Assembly (NCBI GenBank): GCA_011634665.1
Contig: WAEK01000012.1
Span: forward strand, 868,001-932,000
Origin: Mortierella sp. BCC40632
Taxonomy: Eukaryota; Mortierellomycota; Mortierellomycetes; Mortierellales; Mortierellaceae
DNA: 64,000 nt
Reading direction: 5' to 3'
Positions within the stretch are counted from its first letter, which is position 1; each line of letters starts with the position of its first letter. A program made the position numbers and the translations under genes. Of the stretch, positions 1,763-11,658 are shown in pieces. Below the pieces are notes generated by a model. The model was not told the DNA's origin. It searched no databases and was given only the letters and a program-made list of their open reading frames with translations.

Positions 1763-3172
1763 AATAATGACCTAGTAAACTGTATGGACTCGACTTACGA
1801 CGTTGTGAAGAGTATAAAGCAGGCAGGCATAGCTTACAGATCGGCATATTTGTTTTCGTTGCTGGTAAAGGATAGAGTCATTCAAAAAGGCATTACAGTA
1901 GCCTTTTTTATCTGCTCTTCCGAGTCACACTATGTCCTTCAGCACTGGCTGCGATGGCTGAAAGATGACTGTGGCCTGAATACAAGCGCATTTATAATGG
2001 ACTGTGCCATCGCTGAGTCTGCTGCCATTGAGAGCATATTTCCCTGTGCTAGAATCTTTTATTGCGATTTCCACGTCGCCCAGCTGTGGGAAAGACATTT
2101 AAAAGAGAAACGCCCGGTGAGTTTTGGTCGTCAGATTGAGTGGCTAATACTTTCTCCTGATGCGCCCCACTTACGTTTTCATCCTCACCCTCTTTTTTTT
2201 ATCAGGTTGAAGAATGCAGGATGATGAGGCCACTATTGAAAAAAGTTCACACAGCTCAGTCACACGAGGATCAGTATTGCCTTTGGACACAATTCAAAGC
2301 ACGCTTTCCCTCCGCAACCACTCTGATCTCATACATTGAGAAAAATTGGCTTAATGAGAATATCGAACGTTGGGCAGTTTAACATCGAATGGTAAGGCAT
2401 CGTAGAGCTCGGCACAAAAGGATGATAGTCAACTAGCCTGACCCATACCTCGTCAATAAGATGACCAGGAGATTACCACCAACAACTGGATCGAATCGTG
2501 GCATAAAACGCTGAAGCAAGTGTATCTAGACCGTAGAAGAAAAACGCGAGCAGACACCCTGCTTCACCTTTTACAAGAAGTCGTCAACACGGACCTCAGC
2601 CTCCAGTATTTCAAGATCAGTACTGGACTAGAGCCACTCCCACCTTCATCCCAAGACAAGTCAAGAAAATCCAAGGCAGACAATTCCATTTAGACGGGCA
2701 TTATCCAGGTGACACTAATGGTGCACGAGAGAAAGGTATGGTTGTCTCTTGAAATGGTTTTAACTCGCAAGAGGATAGGAGACTGCTCACTACGGAGCCG
2801 ATCTCTTTATTATCTAGATTGCCGTCAAGTCTTTTGTGTCTTCACCTGTTGAATACATTGCTCGTTTCAAGCCTACGGACGGGCTAAGAATGAATGAACC
2901 AGAGGGACTCTTCAGGCATGCACATGTTCCGATAGCCAAAGACGCCAGAGACCATGTAAACACACGTACCTTGTTAAGTGGTTGAATGAGTTCATATTAT
3001 TGGCTCCTGACAAATATTCCTCCAAACAAAAAATTAACACCTGTGGAATTGCTGTGTCACAACTGAAGGATGGAGATCCTTGTCGACTGAAGTCAAGTAG
3101 GTCCGTTGGGAAAGGGGATTGCACAGACAGATATACGCAACCCGTCTTACTTTGCCACCCCACTTTGCCCAC
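1763..3172 (+). pseudogene. MULE (Mutator-like) transposase with SWIM zinc finger, decayed
   Basis: Spliced in the forward direction this reads as a MULE-type transposase. The piece at 1784-2116 begins with MDSTYDVV, the first catalytic-Asp block, and carries the second Asp in IMDCAIAES and the CDFHVAQLWERHL block. A GT-AG intron (2117-2205) follows in phase. The next pieces carry ERWAV, then TTNNWIESWHKTLK, then KSFVSSPVEYIARF. A SWIM finger of form CxC..CxH (ACTCSDSQ..RPCKHTYLVKW) lies at 2916-2980. Decay is visible: an in-frame TAA at 2380-2382, a TAG at 2691-2693, and a 2-nt frame jump between EGLFR and ACTC near 2917. Upstream sequence at about 1610-1760 reads like more of the N-terminus but has a TGA. 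Family members bind terminal inverted repeats and move by cut and paste. This copy is probably dead. I could not find its terminal repeats by eye. Confidence 0.75.
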
Positions 3173-3331
3173 CCCTTACCACTATACATACTTTAATAAA
3201 GCAGACTTGCTTGCACTTTCTTGGTTACCTTTTCTGTTGCAATTATCTCCGAAGGGTTGGGCTGTCCGCTTTCGCGGAGCTAGCTTTTGCACACAACAAC
3301 CTAAATGGGATCAAATAAGCCCTTTGAAGAG

Positions 3332-3333
<2 letters not shown>

Positions 3334-3371
<38 letters not shown>
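3334..3371. repeat. Poly-T tract of 38 nt
   Basis: An uninterrupted T run lies just downstream of the MULE remnant. It could be slippage or the poly-A tail of an insertion in reverse orientation. No flanking duplication was recognised. Confidence 0.9.
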
Positions 3372-3372
<1 letters not shown>

Positions 3373-3452
3373 TTTTTTTCACCACTGGTGAGATCTTCAG
3401 CCAAACTCTCATGTGCCTACTTCTCCTATCAATCCCTTGGATCGCATTCTAG

Positions 3453-3979
3453 CCACGTGAAACGCAGAACAAAGGACATCGACAATGCCCATCAACTCCT
3501 GAAGCGTGAACTCCTGAAGCTGGGCCACAACTTCTTGCAACTTTAAATAAGCCCTTTCGAACTCCTTTCAACCTGTCGCCTTTTTTAAGTAGCCATTCAT
3601 CGAAGGGTCACTCTTCCTTTTTCGATCAAAGAGTCACTTTTTTTTTTTTTTTTTTTGATCGCTTGCATCAACCCGACAGCTGACCTGGAGAGTCTCTAGC
3701 CTAGTCATTTTGGCACCAAGTGGTGCACTGTCCCCTGTTGGCTGTAGGATTAATTTTCTTTTTAGGCCTCGTTAGAGGTTTACAAAGGACATGGTCACCG
3801 CTGCTTCTTTAAAGAAAAGAAAACTATCTAAACAAAAAAGGGGAAGAGAGGAGGATGACCCAGAGACGAAAGAGGTAGGAAATAAAAATTCTCTTCCCTC
3901 TTTCTTTTCTCTATTTTTCTTTCCAGCCCAACTGTTTTCCCTTCACCTCACTCTTTCCCTCTCATCGATCATCTAAACC
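3453..3979. other. Spacer between MULE remnant and Fanzor gene; 5' flank of the latter
   Basis: No gene is seen. There is a near-tandem repeat of CTCCTGAAGC near 3495-3521, a poly-T run near 3640-3657, and a pyrimidine-rich leader ending in the context AACCATGG at the Fanzor-gene start. If the MULE and the Fanzor are one composite element, this is internal spacer. Confidence 0.5.
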
Positions 3980-5452
3980 ATGGCCTCTGTAAAGCTAAGA
4001 GGATGCTGGCTCGCGGCTGCTCCACCTCCTCTAGAGTTCTCTCGGGAACAACACCGCTTTGAACAGGCTGCGGCCCATCCCACGGGCTGCAGTGCAAACG
4101 AAAGCTTGGAGAGAACTCTGAAGAACCTACTCCATTTCTGCCTGGTTGTTGACAGATCACCCGATGGGACATCCCTCGCACACTACATAGCAAAAACTCT
4201 TCTCAATGGGCCCGACAGTCGCCGGGACAAGCTTTTCCTCTCCTCAACAAACTCCCAGGATGGGTCAATAATCCTCTCACAAACTACCGTCCCCCTCTCT
4301 CCACGATCCTCCTTTGTCTTGGGGGCTGTCTCTTACCACCTCAAAATCAACATTTATTTATTCTCGACCCGAAAACAATGCCTGTTGTTCGACTATCCAG
4401 AAGAAACACTCCATTCGATCGGATTCTTACACAGAGTCTATTCCTATCGAGGAGCAGGCGAGTTTCTAGGCCTGGTGCTCACCACGCATCCGGTCGAGTC
4501 TCCTCTACCGGTCATTCAAGCTCCAGATCCGAGACCTAGACCTTCCAACACTATCAAGGCTGCTAGCTTTAGGAAGGGAAAGAAACAAAGACCCACATGT
4601 AAAAAGCACGTCAGAATGAATCGTGCACATTGCACTAAGGCTGTCACTCAAACATTGTAAGTTTGGATCATCCTTTTTGTCTCTCAATCTTGACTTGGAC
4701 TGAGAGGTATACTTGATGTCTGATCGATCGATCCTTTGAAATAAATAGGCACGAGCGGCCCCGGGAGAAGATCCTAGCTGCAAGGCCCCAGGACAGCCAG
4801 ACGTGCGTAACGGCGACGGTCAAAGAGTCCTTTTTATCCCAGGACACGCCACGCAATGTCCTTCCCAGGGCATTGGCGCTATTGAGGGACCTCGAGCCGG
4901 GTCTAAGTCCAGACGTCTCGGTCTATGACCTTCCACGAGGCCTTGGACCGGGTAGGTCGCTCAGATCCATTTGGGAGGAGACAGTCCAGAGCCACTTTGA
5001 CACCGAGTGGGAGGCTGCCTCCTCTGCGACCAAAAATCCCGTTGCCACATCCTCTACACCGTCAAAGAGGAAGCGAGGCGAGGATCGAGAGGGCAAGAAC
5101 GTAACTCGAGACCCTGCAGTGACTGAAGGGTCCTTCAAACGAAACGGCCTAGATGACGATCTAGATGACGACCCAGATGACGACCCAGACGATGCCGTAG
5201 ACAATGTCCTTGGAGACTTTGAAAAAATAAGGATATGTCCTACAAACTTCAAGAGAATTGTTCGCCCTGAACTCTTGCCTCACCTCAAAACACTCATTCA
5301 AATTGCAGAAAGTCGCCAGAGCGACATGGCTAGAATCATGGACGAGGTCTCTGTATTGGCGCTAAAAGTCATTTACCTGGTATGTTACCGTGTCTTTAGG
5401 TCTCTTTGGGTGCTTGTGCACCACAGCTTATTTCAATGAATCTCATTTACCT

Positions 5453-5509
<57 letters not shown>

Positions 5510-8500
5510 TAGACTGTAAGAGGTGAACTTTACACGGGCCACAAGGGTGGGGGGCTCAATGCGCTTGAGCTATTCTCTAGCAACTATGGCAACAACAGCA
5601 GCGCCAAGACAATCATCAGTGTTGCACCATTACCGAGAGACTTGCAGGTAGTGTTTCTCATGAGTCGAGTTGAGTTGAGTTGGAGGTCCGACTCAACTCA
5701 ACTCATGCACACATAAGTTGGGAAAAATCTGAACTCAACTCAACTCATGAGTCGAAAAGTCGAACTCATCTCAACTCAGGGCATCTACGCCCTGTAAGCG
5801 AGTCGACTCACTCCAACTCAACTTAACTCAACTCAACTCATGAGTTCATGAGTTGAAAAAAGCTTCAACTCAACTCAACTCATGTTACACGAGTCGGGAG
5901 AAAGTTCGAACTCAACTCAACTCATGAGTTGAGTTGAGTTGAGTCGGTGAGTTGGTGAGTCGAGTTGAAAAACACTACTTGCAGGAAAGGCTAGAGACTG
6001 CATTTGGAAGAGGCCTGAACGTCAACAGGGACCCATTTGCGTCTCTCCTGACTGAACATCACCTTCGGAATCTTTATTCACGGTTTTTGGAATCCCAAGG
6101 ATCCTATGGAGCCAAGAAAGGATCGCAGTCTGAAACATGGATTAAACTTCATGAGCTACTCAAGCACCCTGGAAACGACTACAAAGAAATCAATGTCACG
6201 GGGATCTCGGCTACTATCACACAGCACCTGCGAGAATTGGCAACAAACATTGCCAACCTGTGGGATGGCAAGATTTACTACTAAGCGCTGGATTATCTGC
6301 TCAGGATATTGCTCCGAGTCCATCTCGCACCAGAGAGAGAGAAGCGAGGTCCAAGAAGACACAGACTCGGAGAAGGAAGACGACGAGGCCGAGGGGGAAA
6401 GTGAGCAAGGCAAGAGACTTTGTTTGATTTCATGAGTGTTGTGGATCACAACATTTCTCTCGGCTAAGTCGATAAATAGGAACCTAAATAGAGAGCCAGA
6501 GGAGACGTTTATAGGTCGTCTGCAGCGATAGCTGCAGACAGGGCCATTTTTACTCCCCTGGCTGGCTTCACAGGGCCAGTGTAAATACTGACCCTAGCCC
6601 TTGAATAAACCACACATTCTATCTCACTGACATTTACCTCCAACCTTATCAATGAGACATCTGCAAAGACATAAGAGAAACAACCTACCCGCTGCTAACC
6701 AGACTATCATTTTCTTTTACAGAGCCCTCGCGGTCTCGACTGAAAGGACTGCAAGCAGTCATTAGAATGCTGCTCGAGTCTCCCTTTGTCCGCGAAAAGG
6801 TTACCAAGGACGACATCCAAAGAGCGGCACATGTAGGGACCGAATTTACAGAGAAAGAATGTACAGTTGCAGCACATCTGATAAACCAATTACGACTCTA
6901 TGCCCCGAATCGGGTTGTTATTGAGGGCGAAGGAGAAGATGAGAGCAACATGACAAGACGGTGTAATGTAGTAAATGCGATTAGGTGTCTTCCGGTGGGG
7001 GCCCGTGGGGGCTATATAAGGACCCTCCCCCCACTAAATAAAGGGTAGCTTCTTTCTTCCGAATACATTTGCACTTCGCTTCCAGCGTGCTCTTTTTTCA
7101 GGTACCAGCAAGTCTCCGAGCTTCTACAGGAACCATGCTCCCCCTCTAAACTCTCTCATACTAAGGCCTTTTTTTTCGCATGTCCTGAACAGATCTCATC
7201 ATACCTCTCCTCGATTCCTCACCAGCGTGACGGCAGGAGATAGTTAACAGATCAAAGTAACGACTGCATTTTGGTACGTATGAGACTCGGTTTGGAGGTG
7301 ATTGCATTCAAGAAAGGCTCCCAAACAATGGTCTAAGGACCATCGTTTGGCTCATTGTCCTCCCGGCCATGATGCATGGATTTCACGGACCCATCCCAGT
7401 TTGGTCCGCAAAGGATTATGACCACAAGATCCCAATTTATTGATAGCCACTCCCTATTCTACTGTTCTCTTATTAGTTAGAAAGATTATCAGACCTCCTC
7501 TCTTACTTCTGGACAACCTCCATTCGTCCTGAAGTTATCTTTTTCCTGTTCTCGTAAGTTAGTCCATCCTGCTTGCATCTCTGAGGTCTATTATAGAGAA
7601 GAACAGATATTGATTAGAGTCATGATAATTTAGGCACTATTTTGCAACGGACCAAACCACCTTTCAAGCATTTTGCTATTATGGCTCCCATTGTCATGAT
7701 TGCGAACCAAGTACTAAGGATTGCAGATTATGACAACTACTGCAGGAAGCCGGTGCCCGAGATCTCGGTAGCAGACAGGCACGCACTTCACCTTAACGCT
7801 TCGGGGATCTGTGAGGTCTTTGGAAGCTCTCTTCCCGGCCATTTCGATCCGTACGAAGGCCAGGGCCAGATTATCACAAGTGTTCATCAGATACAAGAGG
7901 GTCGTGACGTCCTATTCAGCAGCCTCTTCAACCTGGACGTGCTACGGAAAGAGTGCCGGGACAGAGGTCTTCTGTTCGGCCATCGGTAAGCATCCCGCAG
8001 AGAGGGGCAATTAGATAATGTCTTTTTTTTTTTCCAAGGTTGACATTTGTTGATCAGTGGCCAGTACACCTCACAGGCGAGGTTATTCCTCATAGTGTCA
8101 ACAGAGCGGGGTATCCAGTGACATACAAGTTTGATGAGGATCGGATACAAAAAGGCAAGACATCACACGCTGGCGGGACATGTGGGGCCATCGACTAGCA
8201 GAGAGTGGAATGACCAATAAAGAAGCAGCAGCTTATGCGGAGCGACTCTCAGATGCAAAGAAGGCCAAAAAAAACCAAAGTCCAGAAAATGCGGAAGACA
8301 GTACGTGCATTGGAGGATACAAGGTCGGAAGTTGCCCAGATTGTGAATGAATCAAGGGTACCCAAAGAAGGGAGAAAAGACCTGCCAAGAGGGGCAACAG
8401 AGCACTTGGCCCTTCGGCAGGCCCGTCAAGAGGTACGAGAGGCAAGAAAAAAGCTAGTACCACAAGAGCAACAACTGGAGGCGCTTCGAAAGGCAGCCTA

Positions 8501-10049
8501 CGGATTCAACAAGCTGGCAAAGGCATCAACAGGCCAAGTGTGTTCGAGTAAGCCAATCCAGACTATGGGTACAAGAGCCACATGGGAGCAACCTGTAGTG
8601 ACCGAGAGAACGGAGAAACTGGACATATCGGGGCTACTAGTCGAGGAACATGAAGGGAGAGCTTGTGCGGTTGTGATGGGAGGCACAGACTATGGGCTGA
8701 TTACCATGAGTGGGACTGTTGGGGTCAGCATTGGGCGGATCAGGGCCCACCTCAAGCTCTTTCAGAAATCAGTAGCCGACTTTAACCCGTTCTCGGTCCT
8801 GATGGTAAGTCTTTTTTTTTTTTTTTTTTTTCTTCTAAAGTGGGATAGAGTTTTTTCTAATCTCCTCTTTTGTCACTCTGTAGGTGATTCTGATACAGTC
8901 AGCCAAGTACAAGAAGCGATGGCAGAAGAAGAGGACGACATGGACACCAGTATGCAGTCGATCCAGCCTGGAGATATTAGCGTGGAGCAGGAAGGATCCT
9001 ATGGTGCAGGAGTGGAGCAGATGAATGTCAGTTCCCAAAGCACAGACCCTGACATGGATACGCTGGAAAAGATGAGGCTACCGAAATCTCACAAGATCAC
9101 CTCCGCGCGGATCAACGACATTTCATTTTCCAAAAAATTCCAACGGAGCCGAGAAAAAAGATTTAGAGCGGATCGAGCTGCACAAAATGCTTTGAGCGAG
9201 ATATCGAAGGAAGAGAACAGCCTGAAGCGGGCGTTGACAGCAGAAGAGATCGAGAAAGCCCAAAGAGTTCGACGCAAACAGAGAGAGCCGCTGCAGAGAT
9301 TCTACCAGTCAAAGCGCGCGCTGAAAGAGCGGCATACGCAAGATTTGCGAACGAGGAGAGGGTGGGCGATTCTTGGGTCAGAAGAGCGACGGTTTGTCAG
9401 TCGTCAGGGTAGAGAGGGACCGATTGTGGCGACTGGGCAAGTGTCGCAGGTGGATGGATACTGCAGCGAGTGTCAAAGATACCACCTTCCGCGAGGCATA
9501 GGAGCAGAGCCATTGGAGCATGTCGCCGAGTGTCCCAAGAGAAAGGTAGTTGTGCTTCCGATTATGCTGACGGGGACAGCGGGGACATGTGTAGGGTCTA
9601 GGATAGGAGGACATGCACGACGTGGAGGCAACAAGTTGCGAAAGGAGCATGGGCGATACTGCCCTGTGTCGATGATGGACGAGTATCAGACGAGCAAGAC
9701 GTGTGTGTATTGCTTTCAACGAATGGAGCTTGCACGGTCGAGGAGGGTAGTGAAGGGTGTGACGAAGATGGTGAGGGTTCATGGGGCGGTAGAGTGTGTT
9801 AACTCAGAGTGTCCATCGTTCAAGGTCGGCTACACGATGAAGGGACGAGACCAGAGTGCGGCGATGGCGATAGCGATATCAGGAGCGTCCATTCTGCTCA
9901 ACCAGAACCCACTCCCACCATTCTCAAGGGCTTCCCAGGACGATGTCCTTTCTGCAATCCAAGAACGCCAGTCAAATACTGGATCGAAACAGCCTCCAAC
10001 ATCTATGCAGATGCAATGGTGGCCCCCGGCAGAGTCGGGACAATGGTGA
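3980..10049 (+). CDS. Fanzor (eukaryotic TnpB-like RNA-guided nuclease) with a very long N-terminal extension, multi-exon
   Basis: Proposed exons are 3980-4656, 4749-5379, 5513-5647, 5985-6267, 6305-6400, 6723-6960, 7102-7226, 7634-7985, 8039-8804 and 8884-10049. The first eight junctions all preserve frame, for example TT|G, CTG|ACT, CAG|GAA, A|AG, CG|G and CG|G. The C-terminal part shows RuvC-I Asp in GTDYGLITMS (8688), the LPKSHKITSARINDISFS block, DEYQTSKTCVYC (9678-9713), a second Cys pair (CVNSEC) and RuvC-III GRDQSAAMAIAI (Asp at 9849). This matches the Fanzor signature of D, then [TS][TS], a C4 finger and RD. The Glu next to the TS motif fits the rearranged catalytic Glu reported for Fanzors. 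TnpB and Fanzor proteins cut DNA guided by an omega-RNA. About 800-900 residues precede the nuclease. They include an acidic EDTDSEKEDDEAEGE stretch and a DDDLDDDPDDD run, with no domain I can name. Exon 9 needs two compensating 1-nt shifts, and intron 9 has a phase conflict. Alternatively the nuclease starts at the ATG at 8235 as its own gene. Confidence 0.8.
5648..5984 (+). other. Intron 3 of the Fanzor gene, created by a MITE insertion
   Basis: The intron is 337 nt, exactly the 329-bp MITE plus one 8-bp target duplication. The donor GT is made from the last G of the left duplication and the first T of the element. The acceptor AG lies in the right duplication (CTTGCAG|G). Removing the intron restores the uninterrupted codons LQER. 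Confidence 0.85.
5649..5977. mobile_element. Non-autonomous hAT-like MITE with 8-bp target duplication
   Basis: The element begins TAGTGTTTCTCA and its other end, reverse-complemented, begins TAGTGTTTTTCA. This gives an 11/12 terminal inverted repeat matching the YARNG end of hAT elements. It is flanked by the perfect 8-bp direct repeat CTTGCAGG (5641-5648 and 5978-5985), the target-duplication size of the hAT superfamily. The interior has no coding capacity. It consists of alternating blocks of the pentamers ACTCA and GAGTT, so the transcript could fold on itself. The superfamily call rests on end sequence and duplication length only. Confidence 0.85.
6268..6304 (+). other. Candidate 37-nt GC-AG intron
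   Basis: The exon ending GGGATG is followed by GCAAGA, a GC-type donor, with a TACTACTAAG branch-like site and the acceptor GCTCAG. Only this choice, not the nearby GT at 6260, keeps the frame into the acidic exon at 6305-6400. Confidence 0.5.
6437..6651. mobile_element. Solo LTR (215 bp) with 5-bp target duplication ATGAG
   Basis: The element starts TGTTGTGGATCACAACA, a short palindrome, and ends TTATCA, so it has the TG..CA termini of LTRs. The flanks carry the direct repeat ATGAG at 6432-6436 and 6652-6656. It contains an AATAAA-like signal (about 6603-6608) and a perfect 9-bp stem with GATA loop (6518-6539, GTCTGCAGC/GCTGCAGAC). It lies inside intron 5 (6401-6722) of the Fanzor gene and leaves both splice sites intact. 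No internal retrotransposon genes remain. Confidence 0.8.
6961..7101 (+). other. Intron 6 of the Fanzor gene with promoter/LTR-like content
   Basis: The 141-nt intron joins CG|G in frame. Its interior has GGCTATATAAGG, then AATAAAGG, between a TG at 6962 and a CA at 7099-7100. This is the order of a tiny LTR (TATA box, then polyadenylation signal). No 5-bp target duplication is present, so the LTR reading is weak. Confidence 0.45.
7227..7633 (+). other. Intron 7 of the Fanzor gene (407 nt)
   Basis: The phase fits C|GC, joining SIPHQ-R to TILQRTKPPFKHF. An alternative donor at 7182 also keeps frame. The intron contains a 40-codon open stretch around 7310-7442 that could be an extra exon. I could not place it with splice sites. 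Confidence 0.4.
8149..8274 (+). other. Segment between two compensating 1-nt frame shifts in A-runs
   Basis: The exon enters in one frame (YPVTYKFDEDRIQ). The protein-like sequence DITRWRDMWGHRLAESGMTN and KEAAAYAERLSDAKKAKK is in another frame. The reading returns to the first frame at KVQKMRKTV. The shifts sit at an A5 run (8149-8153, one A short) and an A8 run (8267-8274, one A extra). The original frame meets TAG at 8196-8198. The cause is either assembly homopolymer errors or real decay. Confidence 0.6.
8640..9950 (+). other. Fanzor RuvC/zinc-ribbon nuclease core
   Basis: In order this holds the RuvC-I strand with its Asp (codon at 8688-8690), an intron (8805-8883), an acidic linker, the LPKSHKIT block, a basic helical stretch rich in Arg/Lys, a CxxC..H..C-containing stretch (GYCSECQRYHLP and HVAECP), the GGHARRGGNKLRKEHGRYCP segment, the DEYQTS block, the C4 ribbon and the RuvC-III RD. 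The Asp-to-TS distance is about 300 residues after removing intron sequence. That is slightly longer than the 125-275 range stated for the family motif. The extra Cys/His residues ahead of the canonical ribbon may form a second zinc site, which is an inference. Confidence 0.8.
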
Positions 10050-10839
10050 GTACAAAAATCTCTTTTGCATGCATTCTTTTCTTCCTCTTGCTGCATGATC
10101 TAATTTTTTAATTTTTTGTTTGCGATAATATTTGAGTAGACCCATTATTGTCGATGTTCGCCAGGTGTGGCCTATTCAGCCATGGTCTCTTTCTCTTTGC
10201 GGACTCTTTGGTGTATCTTGTTCAGAGTGTTCCTCGCAGTCTTACCCGAATTCGGTATTCGTGTCTTCTCCGCCTTACGATTTGTATTCTTTTTTTTCCT
10301 CTTTTTCTCTTTGCTTTTCCCATTCTTTCTCAAGTGATTTTTCCAACACTTCGAAATCATGTTCCAAGTCTTCACGAACAATCCACTTGTTCCCCCCTCT
10401 TCCAACCATCCTCTGTCTAACCCGTCATTTTTCTTTGGGCGTATGTCTCTTGCATCCTCTTTGTGTCCGCCCTGTTCTGCATTGAAAACACCCTTCTCTC
10501 TACCACTTCTTCTCTTTCTCTTTCTCTTTCTCTTTCCTCGTCTTCACTCTCACTCTCTTCTTCGCTCTCTTCCTCTTCCTCGGTTGTGTATGAAGCGTCT
10601 TCGATCGCCTCCAGTCAATCATCTGCCCTGCTCTGCTGCTCCTCTGTCCACCTTAACACCTCCCTCTCAGCTTCCTGTCCACACATCTGCCTCTGGATAG
10701 ATATGCCAAACCAAAAACGGAAATAGGTGCTCAAATACGCGGCGAGCTGAACCCCGGTGACGTAATATCGTTGTGCCCGTCCGGGGTTCGAGTTCACGGA
10801 AAGGGTCGTGTGATTTCATGTCATTCTCTTTTCTGCCCA
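10050..10839. other. 3' flank of the Fanzor gene; candidate guide-RNA region and IMP1 promoter
   Basis: No gene is seen. The stretch is pyrimidine-rich. In characterised Fanzor loci the omega-RNA is encoded at or just past the 3' end of the ORF, so this is where one would look. That is an inference from the family, and no conserved guide scaffold can be recognised by eye. Confidence 0.4.
10749..10789. promoter_or_regulatory. 9-bp inverted repeat enclosing a CRE-like TGACGTAA
   Basis: GAACCCCGG (10749-10757) and CCGGGGTTC (10781-10789) form a perfect stem around a 23-nt loop. The loop starts with TGACGTAA, a site type used by ATF/CREB-family bZIP factors. It lies 51 bp before the IMP1 start codon. 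It could be an IMP1 regulatory element or the end structure of the neighbouring element. Confidence 0.4.
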
Positions 10840-11658
10840 ATGTCATTCTCAAGGCTCCTCAAGGGCTCCGCCTTGGTATTCCAGGTTGCATGTGGTGTAC
10901 AGCTCTTTACTGAGTATGTTGCCGAATTCACATGGGTAATGTTTTCCGAAACCACTGCTTGGCATCTGCCTTTTCACAGAAACGATTTGCTTTCTAGGCT
11001 CTAGTTAATTAACAGGACATGGTATCTCGTCTGCTTGAATTCACAACAGTGCTTCGGACCCTCAATGCTCCCTACACTCAACATGACTGGAGACGTCGTC
11101 GCTTATGAGCACTTGACACAGAGGTTCTCGAAGCTCGGCACTGGCGATCTTGTAGTAGCCGTATCGCCAACAAGCCCATCAAAGCTTGTATGCAAACGTA
11201 TCATTGGCGTCGCTGGCGACAAAGTGTGTATTGATCCACTATCCATGCATCGACAGTATATTACTGTATGGCTTACTCTCTACTTGCGCCATTGGTATTC
11301 CACGTTTTTTTTTCCCTTCAGGTCGAGGATTATAGGTGTTTACTCACTCTGCCTTAATCGTTGCTGCCTTGAACAATCTTTTAGGTTCCTCCAGGTCATT
11401 ACTGGCTAATGGGCGACAACCTGAACAACTCAACAGATTCTCGCGTGTATGGGCCAGTGTCCGGAGGCTTGATTCTAGGACGTGTGTTTGCAAGGGTATG
11501 ATTGATCTCTGTCTTCCTCTTCCTCTCTCCGAGCTGCATTTTATGTGAAAAAAAGGTCAAGGCACTAACCCGATTTGTGTCTCTATCTTTCATAGATGTG
11601 GCCCAACCCCAAATGGCTTGGAAACGGCTTGGAGGAAATTGTAGAGTTCTCGGCGTAG
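10840..11658 (+). CDS. IMP1: Mitochondrial inner membrane protease subunit 1
   Basis: Exons are 10840-10935, 11050-11265, 11385-11495 and 11596-11658, all in phase 0. They give 161 residues, the usual size. This is a signal-peptidase-I-type serine protease (S26 family) of the inner membrane that removes sorting signals facing the intermembrane space. Visible motifs are the nucleophile Ser in CFGPSMLPT, the general-base Lys in [10 protein letters not shown], and the box [17 protein letters not shown]. The N-terminal stretch [20 protein letters not shown] includes the membrane anchor. The ATG at 10840 is chosen because the upstream ATG at 10819 is in another frame. The neighbour upstream is the Fanzor locus, and no functional link is implied. 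Confidence 0.92.

Follow-up and report, generated by a model that had tools for sequence, protein, structure and literature searches.

SpuFz1, the Fanzor of the Spu-1 element of Spizellomyces punctatus, is a proven nuclease whose metals are coordinated by E541, D383, N385, and D606, according to the available part of its description. Spu-1 is an inverted-repeat element without a known transposase, and the accessible text on it describes a 3′-end RNA and a 75-nt region at the right inverted repeat. PpFz1 is the Fanzor1 of Parasitella parasitica. MCi-2, a Fanzor1 of Mucor circinelloides, has near-constant 3′ and variable 5′ regions and no recognizable inverted repeats in the portion of the report at hand (Bao and Jurka 2013, PMC3627910). 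The general RuvC and zinc-ribbon layout extends to IS607 TnpB/Fanzor2, including TnpB-like L79 (9b0l).

The locus compared here lies in a stretch of 64,000 nucleotides of Mortierella sp. BCC40632 DNA, hereafter the window. Its family shares with SpuFz1 the rearranged Glu by the zinc ribbon, a CxNxxC second zinc knuckle, and the RuvC-III Asp, and its element would resemble Spu-1 in being a putative inverted-repeat element without a known transposase and with a 3′-end RNA, which here is a candidate. It differs in length, the family being approximately twice as long as SpuFz1, whose chain ends at about residue 638 by alignment offset, and in having GTDYG in RuvC-I, a multi-intron gene, and a candidate terminal intron. 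Moreover, the candidate scaffold is inside the coding 3′ end, whereas the 75-nt region of Spu-1 is at the right inverted repeat. PpFz1, the second-best PDB match, has the identical knuckle pattern; unlike it, the window family has a long N-terminal part for which the searches made found no relative beyond Mortierellaceae. The near-constant 3′ and variable 5′ regions of MCi-2 recur here, but both ends of one copy, C24, carry inverted repeats, and internal deletions at poly-T runs account for several of the 5′ differences. In PDB searches, L79 came first for another family of this genome and not for the window's.

The best explanation, which we consider probable, is that the window holds a DNA transposon with inverted repeats, now dead, that carried a single gene, a very large Fanzor1-like gene (relatives, 1322–1346 aa) whose product would be omega-RNA-guided in living relatives. 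Homology, the residue match to SpuFz1, the right end, the breakage, past purifying selection, and a covarying 3′ structure were all computed. From these sequences, we infer a protein that would act in living relatives as an omega-RNA-guided DNA nuclease, cutting by the RuvC Asp, the rearranged Glu, and the Asp, with a C4 zinc ribbon. The guide RNA would derive from the 3′ end of the gene's own transcript, with the last ~50 coding nucleotides as the omega-RNA scaffold and the DNA next to the element's right end as guide.

The element, its gene, and its decay

The element belongs to subfamily A and was delimited as follows.

3001..10144, + strand: entire element of subfamily A, bounded by putative inverted repeats and carrying later inserts; right end from 12 of 12 other A copies, left end from similarity to C24, C6a, and C6b
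3001..3038, + strand: left inverted repeat, degraded; 28 of 38 positions identical to the right one
10107..10144, − strand: right inverted repeat, by copy comparison
2997..3000, no strand: TTAT, possible target duplication on the left, window only
10145..10148, no strand: TTAT, possible target duplication on the right, window only

The right ends of all 12 other A copies fell at 10141–10157. The TTAT duplication is tentative because it was not seen by eye in C24, C6a, or C6b; no empty site was found for the element. Protein searches returned at least 120 matches to the Fanzor-like gene. The pattern GATAATATTTGAGTAGACCC, with up to two mismatches, occurred at 13 places (backward control, 0), two of them inverted relative to a Fanzor gene kilobases away. 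One of these is at the left end of C24, whose two ends agree over their first 17 bases and nearly agree beyond.

Constant 3′ and variable 5′ ends had suggested LINE-like 5′-truncated copies. This was rejected: C7, C13, C4a, C6a, and C6b retain left parts of the element, fused to the right part, frequently at poly-T runs, so that these copies reflect internal deletions rather than 5′ truncation. No left part was seen within the 1.5 kb examined in C5, C10, C17, C4b, C30, and C6c. An antisense retrocopy ending in poly-A was likewise discarded, no duplicated target being visible by eye.

Several neighbors of these elements were recorded. Directly left of the window element, at 1763–2994, is a transposase-like gene, by eye resembling a MULE with a SWIM finger; in its other genome copies, three of four matches end at the same place and one ends 7 bases earlier. 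The A copy C4a adjoins a relative of this gene. At L070:3575–4665 there are open frames antisense to the Fanzor gene in the left 1.5 kb, which is common to C24, C7, and, in part, C13; these frames left of C24 gave no Pfam match over cut-off. At 11005–11480 of the window, frames resemble by eye a mitochondrial inner membrane signal peptidase (GPSMLPTL).

The initial annotation began the gene at 7634, a position that falls inside a solo LTR ending at 7646. The predicted gene is much longer and begins upstream at the ATG at 3980. Its parts are listed below.

3977..4656, + strand: first exon, ATG at 3980; open frame matching the N-terminus of P0010, E 4e-9
4657 (GT)..4748 (AG), + strand: intron after the first exon; joins 4749 in frame
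4749..5379, + strand: second exon with a predicted end; aligned to P0006 84–151
5979..6350, + strand: exon region with a stop at 6282, by alignment to relatives
6722..6961, + strand: exon region upstream of the LTR, by alignment to relatives
7647..7985, + strand: exon downstream of the LTR, followed by an intron at 7986–8038, by alignment to relatives
8039..10049, + strand: C-terminal part of the coding region, which includes RuvC and the zinc ribbon; stop at 10047–10049
8688..8690, + strand: RuvC-I Asp of GTDYG, by sequence and conservation in relatives
9681..9683, + strand: RuvC-II Glu in the rearranged position, by sequence, 12-piece alignment, and SpuFz1 alignment
9849..9851, + strand: RuvC-III Asp, by sequence, 12-piece alignment, and SpuFz1 alignment

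P0006 (Mortierella sp. GBA43, 1080 aa, partial) could be aligned piecewise from 4813 to 9470 of the window, and the P0001 alignment extended to 9929. The start of P0010 (M. alpina, 1346 aa) matched the exon at 3977–4656 (33.6% over 107 positions). Based on these alignments and the match to the P0010 N-terminus, the gene would run from approximately 3980 to 10049. P0010 and P0009 (1322 aa) are full-length relatives from other Mortierella. No Pfam family was found at E up to 1 for the N-terminal pieces of the gene. The frame at 8214–10049, with 611 codons free of stops, contains GTDYG, DEYQTSK, the C4 ribbon (Cys codons at 9702, 9711, 9795, and 9810), and GRD, so the motifs first noted in this DNA are present. 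Within it, a 79-nt GT..AG stretch at 8805–8883 is intron-like, and its excision would shift the frame.

The suggestion that this copy might encode a working or recently working nuclease was not supported: a solo LTR and other inserts interrupt the copy, which also carries frameshifts.

6962..7646, no strand: solo LTR, 685 bp, TG..CA, with ACGG on each side; the sister copy C24 has the uninterrupted site
5649..5977, no strand: inserted repeat, ~329 bp, many genome copies; absent from C24
6437..6648, no strand: insert, ~212 bp; missing in C24, ~7 bp overlap

The LTR repeat has many copies in the genome, and the junction of the repeat at 5649–5977 shows an overlap of ~9 bp relative to C24. The latter repeat is rich in GAGTTGAGTT and has dozens of genome copies. 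The frameshifts at ~8170–8280 are private to the window, none of the four copies compared sharing them. With the LTR, the other inserts, and these frameshifts, the window copy is therefore dead and unable to make the full protein.

Coding sequences of subfamily A copies gave dN/dS values of 0.18–0.50 in 68 of 78 pairs, which indicates that past selection was mostly purifying and that ancestral copies were functional. Eight of the ten remaining pairs are C30 pairs or C6a–C6b; C5–C4b and the rest gave 0.51–0.52. Values above 1 occurred in 4 of the 12 pairs with C30, and C6a–C6b gave 0.87. Divergence in the last 200 bp is the lowest, or among the lowest, of any part of the older copies C6a, C6b, C6c, and C4b.

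The 3′ structure and the candidate terminal intron

Two candidate features mark the 3′ end of the gene.

9993..10039, + strand: candidate omega-RNA scaffold with a nested two-stem fold followed by a hairpin; cross-subfamily structure and covariation
10046..10139, + strand: candidate terminal intron, GTGAGT to TTTGAG (10136) or TAG (10139); donor- and acceptor-like edges

The scaffold is laid out as stem 1, AA, stem 2, loop, stem 2′, C[ACG]AT, stem 1′, and hairpin, and this three-stem layout recurs in the last ~50 nt of the gene in subfamilies A, B, D, and E. Across 12 rows, 93.5% of the 108 cells of the two nested stems were paired, as compared to at most 51.9% in slid controls, and changes on both sides were found in five of nine pairs. 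Since loop length varies in the terminal hairpin, this part was compared by eye. The motif is read in different frames (A, ATG CAA TGG; B, GAT GCA ATG; E, GGA TGC GAT) and its conservation is thus not explained by the protein.

A scan of the DNA examined yielded 15 distinct matches and none in the reversed control; 13 of the 15 had a TNB-like motif within the 420 bases upstream. The exact core pattern occurred at 54 places in the genome (control, 0). With a covariance model built from 12 of these sequences, 49 sources yielded 40 matches at E up to 10, two of them weak (E ~3). In L033, which was outside the training set, a match of 22.7 bits (E 0.014) lies immediately downstream of the gene. 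No Rfam family matched 9800–10300 at E up to 1. For subfamilies C and F, the folds were assessed by eye: in C, model R1 was not significant, its strong match at L022 being a neighboring A copy, and in F it gave only 11.4 bits (L038, E ~3). Single-sequence folding of 73 nt against plain shuffles gave z values of −1.5 for A, +1.3 for C, −2.1 for B, −3.4 for E, and −2.8 for D, for which the folding window was cut inside the hairpin. Given this range, energy alone is insufficient for the scaffold claim. We infer the role of omega-RNA scaffold from the conservation and covariation of the fold.

Two B-type scaffolds, at L071:1295 and L002:1086 (both + strand), have no TNB-like motif in the upstream 420 bases. 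These are possibly guide RNA loci without a protein, akin to the ghost loci of Spu-1.

A candidate splice donor was present within 10 nt past the last hairpin in five of seven subfamilies (A, C, D, F, and G). The sequence after the hairpin reads ACAATG/GTGAGT in 12 of 13 copies of A (GTGGGT in C4b), ATTATG/GTAAGA at 3/3 loci of C, TACACAAAG/GTGAGC at 5/5 loci of D, CGTACTT/GTAAGT at 4/6 of F (GTAAGC in L038, none in L031), and TATCTTTAG/GTATGT at the single locus of G (L033). In D, the donor was present at 10 of 11 genome sites, the search pattern itself including the donor. The window contains 0.0016 donor-like hexamers per position, and a donor so placed in five of seven subfamilies is therefore far above chance, an estimate for which the hexamer set was picked after viewing the ends and the scaffold in C and F was judged by eye.

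An acceptor-like AG lies 0–8 nt from the right end in all four donor subfamilies with a mapped right end (A, C, D, and F). The right end is at TTTGAG/TAG/ACCCA in A, at TTGAG/TAG/AACCA in C (3/3), at AACAG/CTGTA in D (5/5), and at GATACAG in F (three of four same-type copies, in which the acceptor coincides with the right end; L029 is without the G). Subfamily B has no intron, its right end being 13–14 nt past the hairpin (14 ends, 9 different flanks); E, with one locus, looks like B. With the stretch removed, the hairpin is 7–14 nt from the right end in the five subfamilies with a mapped right end (A, B, C, D, and F), the end in C being placed to within a few nt; with the stretch retained, it is ~100–150 nt away in A, C, D, and F. 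Subfamily D has its stop codon within the hairpin, and there the stretch beyond it thus cannot serve the protein.

With a donor after the scaffold and an acceptor at the right end, host DNA from the flank would become attached to the scaffold through splicing. On this arrangement we base a tentative and rather doubtful proposal: that the guide RNAs of these Fanzors may be assembled by the spliceosome, the scaffold being spliced to flanking DNA as guide. In a literature search conducted largely outside subscription papers and preprints, no title on spliced Fanzor guides was found. In the Fanzor papers PMC10711439, PMC10432273, and PMC11423790, the word "intron" is absent; "splic" is present in two of the three, once and twice, in passages that are not on guides.

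The chances are about even that the stretch from scaffold to right end in A is instead part of a longer, unspliced omega-RNA running through the inverted repeat. Indeed, the accessible portions of the respective reports have the Spu-1 RNA spanning the right inverted repeat and an ascovirus Fanzor1 RNA containing inverted-repeat bases. However, an unspliced RNA sits poorly with the resemblance of the edges to a donor and an acceptor in A, C, D, and F and with inner sequences that look unrelated among A, D, and F; the inverted repeat accounts for the acceptor side in A, but not for the donor in A, nor for D and F.

It is less probable, and in our view unlikely, that the 3′ structure is a transposon DNA end signal, a Helitron-like terminal hairpin, rather than a guide RNA scaffold. 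Helitron 3′ ends follow the rule of a hairpin, CTAG, and then T, as do most of the 14 listed ends of subfamily B. Nevertheless, the structure in A and D is set back from the right end by ~100–150 bp within the element, and the conserved part takes in the two-stem fold upstream of the hairpin. B elements also precede subfamily F genes, with the same junction in L024, L025, and L029, as if co-amplified.

Kinship with Fanzor and the putative catalytic residues

The assignment of the gene to a Fanzor/TnpB type in a fungal genome stood up. A profile of 12 C-terminal zinc-ribbon (TNB) pieces, all from the window's genome, was searched against PDB; the top two of 177,635 were SpuFz1 (E 0.025) and PpFz1 (E 0.66), the third of the three matches at E up to 10 being a ubiquitin ligase (E 0.70). 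Broader profiles again placed SpuFz1 first (E 0.12 and 0.34); with a longer, noisier profile, unrelated chains followed close behind it. The alignment put the family Glu on residue 935 and the last Asp on residue 1000 of the SpuFz1 chain, corresponding to E541 and D606 of SpuFz1 numbering plus 394. Both are invariant in the 12 aligned pieces. The Glu sits six residues ahead of the first zinc Cys, the rearranged Fanzor position, and the second knuckle, CxNxxC, is shared with SpuFz1 and PpFz1. G[TS]DYG was present in the window and in all eight database relatives covering RuvC-I (P0003 and P0008 lack this coverage). With such conservation, the motifs are not chance occurrences. Eight of the ten relatives are named, as Mortierella, Benniella, or Modicella. 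The putative catalytic Glu and last Asp are thus backed by the SpuFz1 profile alignment, and the first Asp by conservation alone.

The family profile ranked Fanzors first, and single-sequence searches with the window found no match over curated cut-off among Pfam and NCBIfam models. Specifically, the window piece matched PF07282 at E 0.045 (14.4 bits; curated cut-off, 26.3). Nine of the 12 members matched this model, the best at E 0.0024 (~18.6 bits by conversion), all under cut-off. In a profile–profile comparison, the family also matched (probability 90, E 1.5e-6) a second family of this genome, which is PF07282-positive and TnpB/Fanzor2-like (L001–L008 and 48 genome places). The RuvC-I of this second family reads GIDLGQ or GLDLGQ, and its closest PDB entry is L79.

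A near-exclusive Fanzor fingerprint, per the available text, is DPG in RuvC-I, and a family with G[TS]DYG therefore lacks it. The TnpB/Fanzor pattern excerpted from Bao and Jurka (PMC3627910) is D-X(125,275)-[TS][TS]-X-X-C4-X(5,50)-RD. The Asp-to-TS spacing was within range in 5/5 relatives (262, 249, 212, 252, and 246 in P0001, P0002, P0004, P0009, and P0010, respectively); the window has all parts of the pattern in order, but its spacing of ~307–333 exceeds 125–275. Judged on sequence, this is a highly divergent Fanzor1-like family and not a canonical Fanzor1. No giant-virus relatives were found, nor was a paper joining Fanzor and Mortierella in the same literature search, again largely outside subscription papers and preprints.

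A TnpB/Fanzor descendant that lost its nuclease function and took another role in the element, such as that of a DNA- or RNA-binding regulator, is improbable. The RuvC-I that deviates from DPG, the long N-terminal part without a Pfam match over cut-off, and the residue before the Glu, which differs between subfamilies, would fit such a protein. They are set against retention of the Glu and last Asp in 12/12 pieces and of the first Asp in 8/8 relatives, mostly purifying selection, and the metal coordination by E541, D383, N385, and D606 in SpuFz1, whose available description establishes it as a nuclease. That this is an ordinary zinc-ribbon protein merely resembling Fanzor is very improbable: the curated models give no call, but the top PDB matches are Fanzors, with agreement at the residue level, and the profile matches a PF07282 family.

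Implications for a probable Mortierellaceae Fanzor branch

The Fanzor1-like reading of this locus points to a branch in Mortierellaceae that is uncalled by Pfam and NCBIfam models, is approximately twice as large as SpuFz1, and lacks the DPG mark. Specialist attention is best directed at the 3′ structure and the candidate terminal intron. The scaffold structure provides a handle for guide RNA searches from sequence alone. Use of the terminal intron would make these elements reliant on splicing to form their guides, and a transposon could then keep the ends needed by its transposase while leaving none of them between scaffold and guide.
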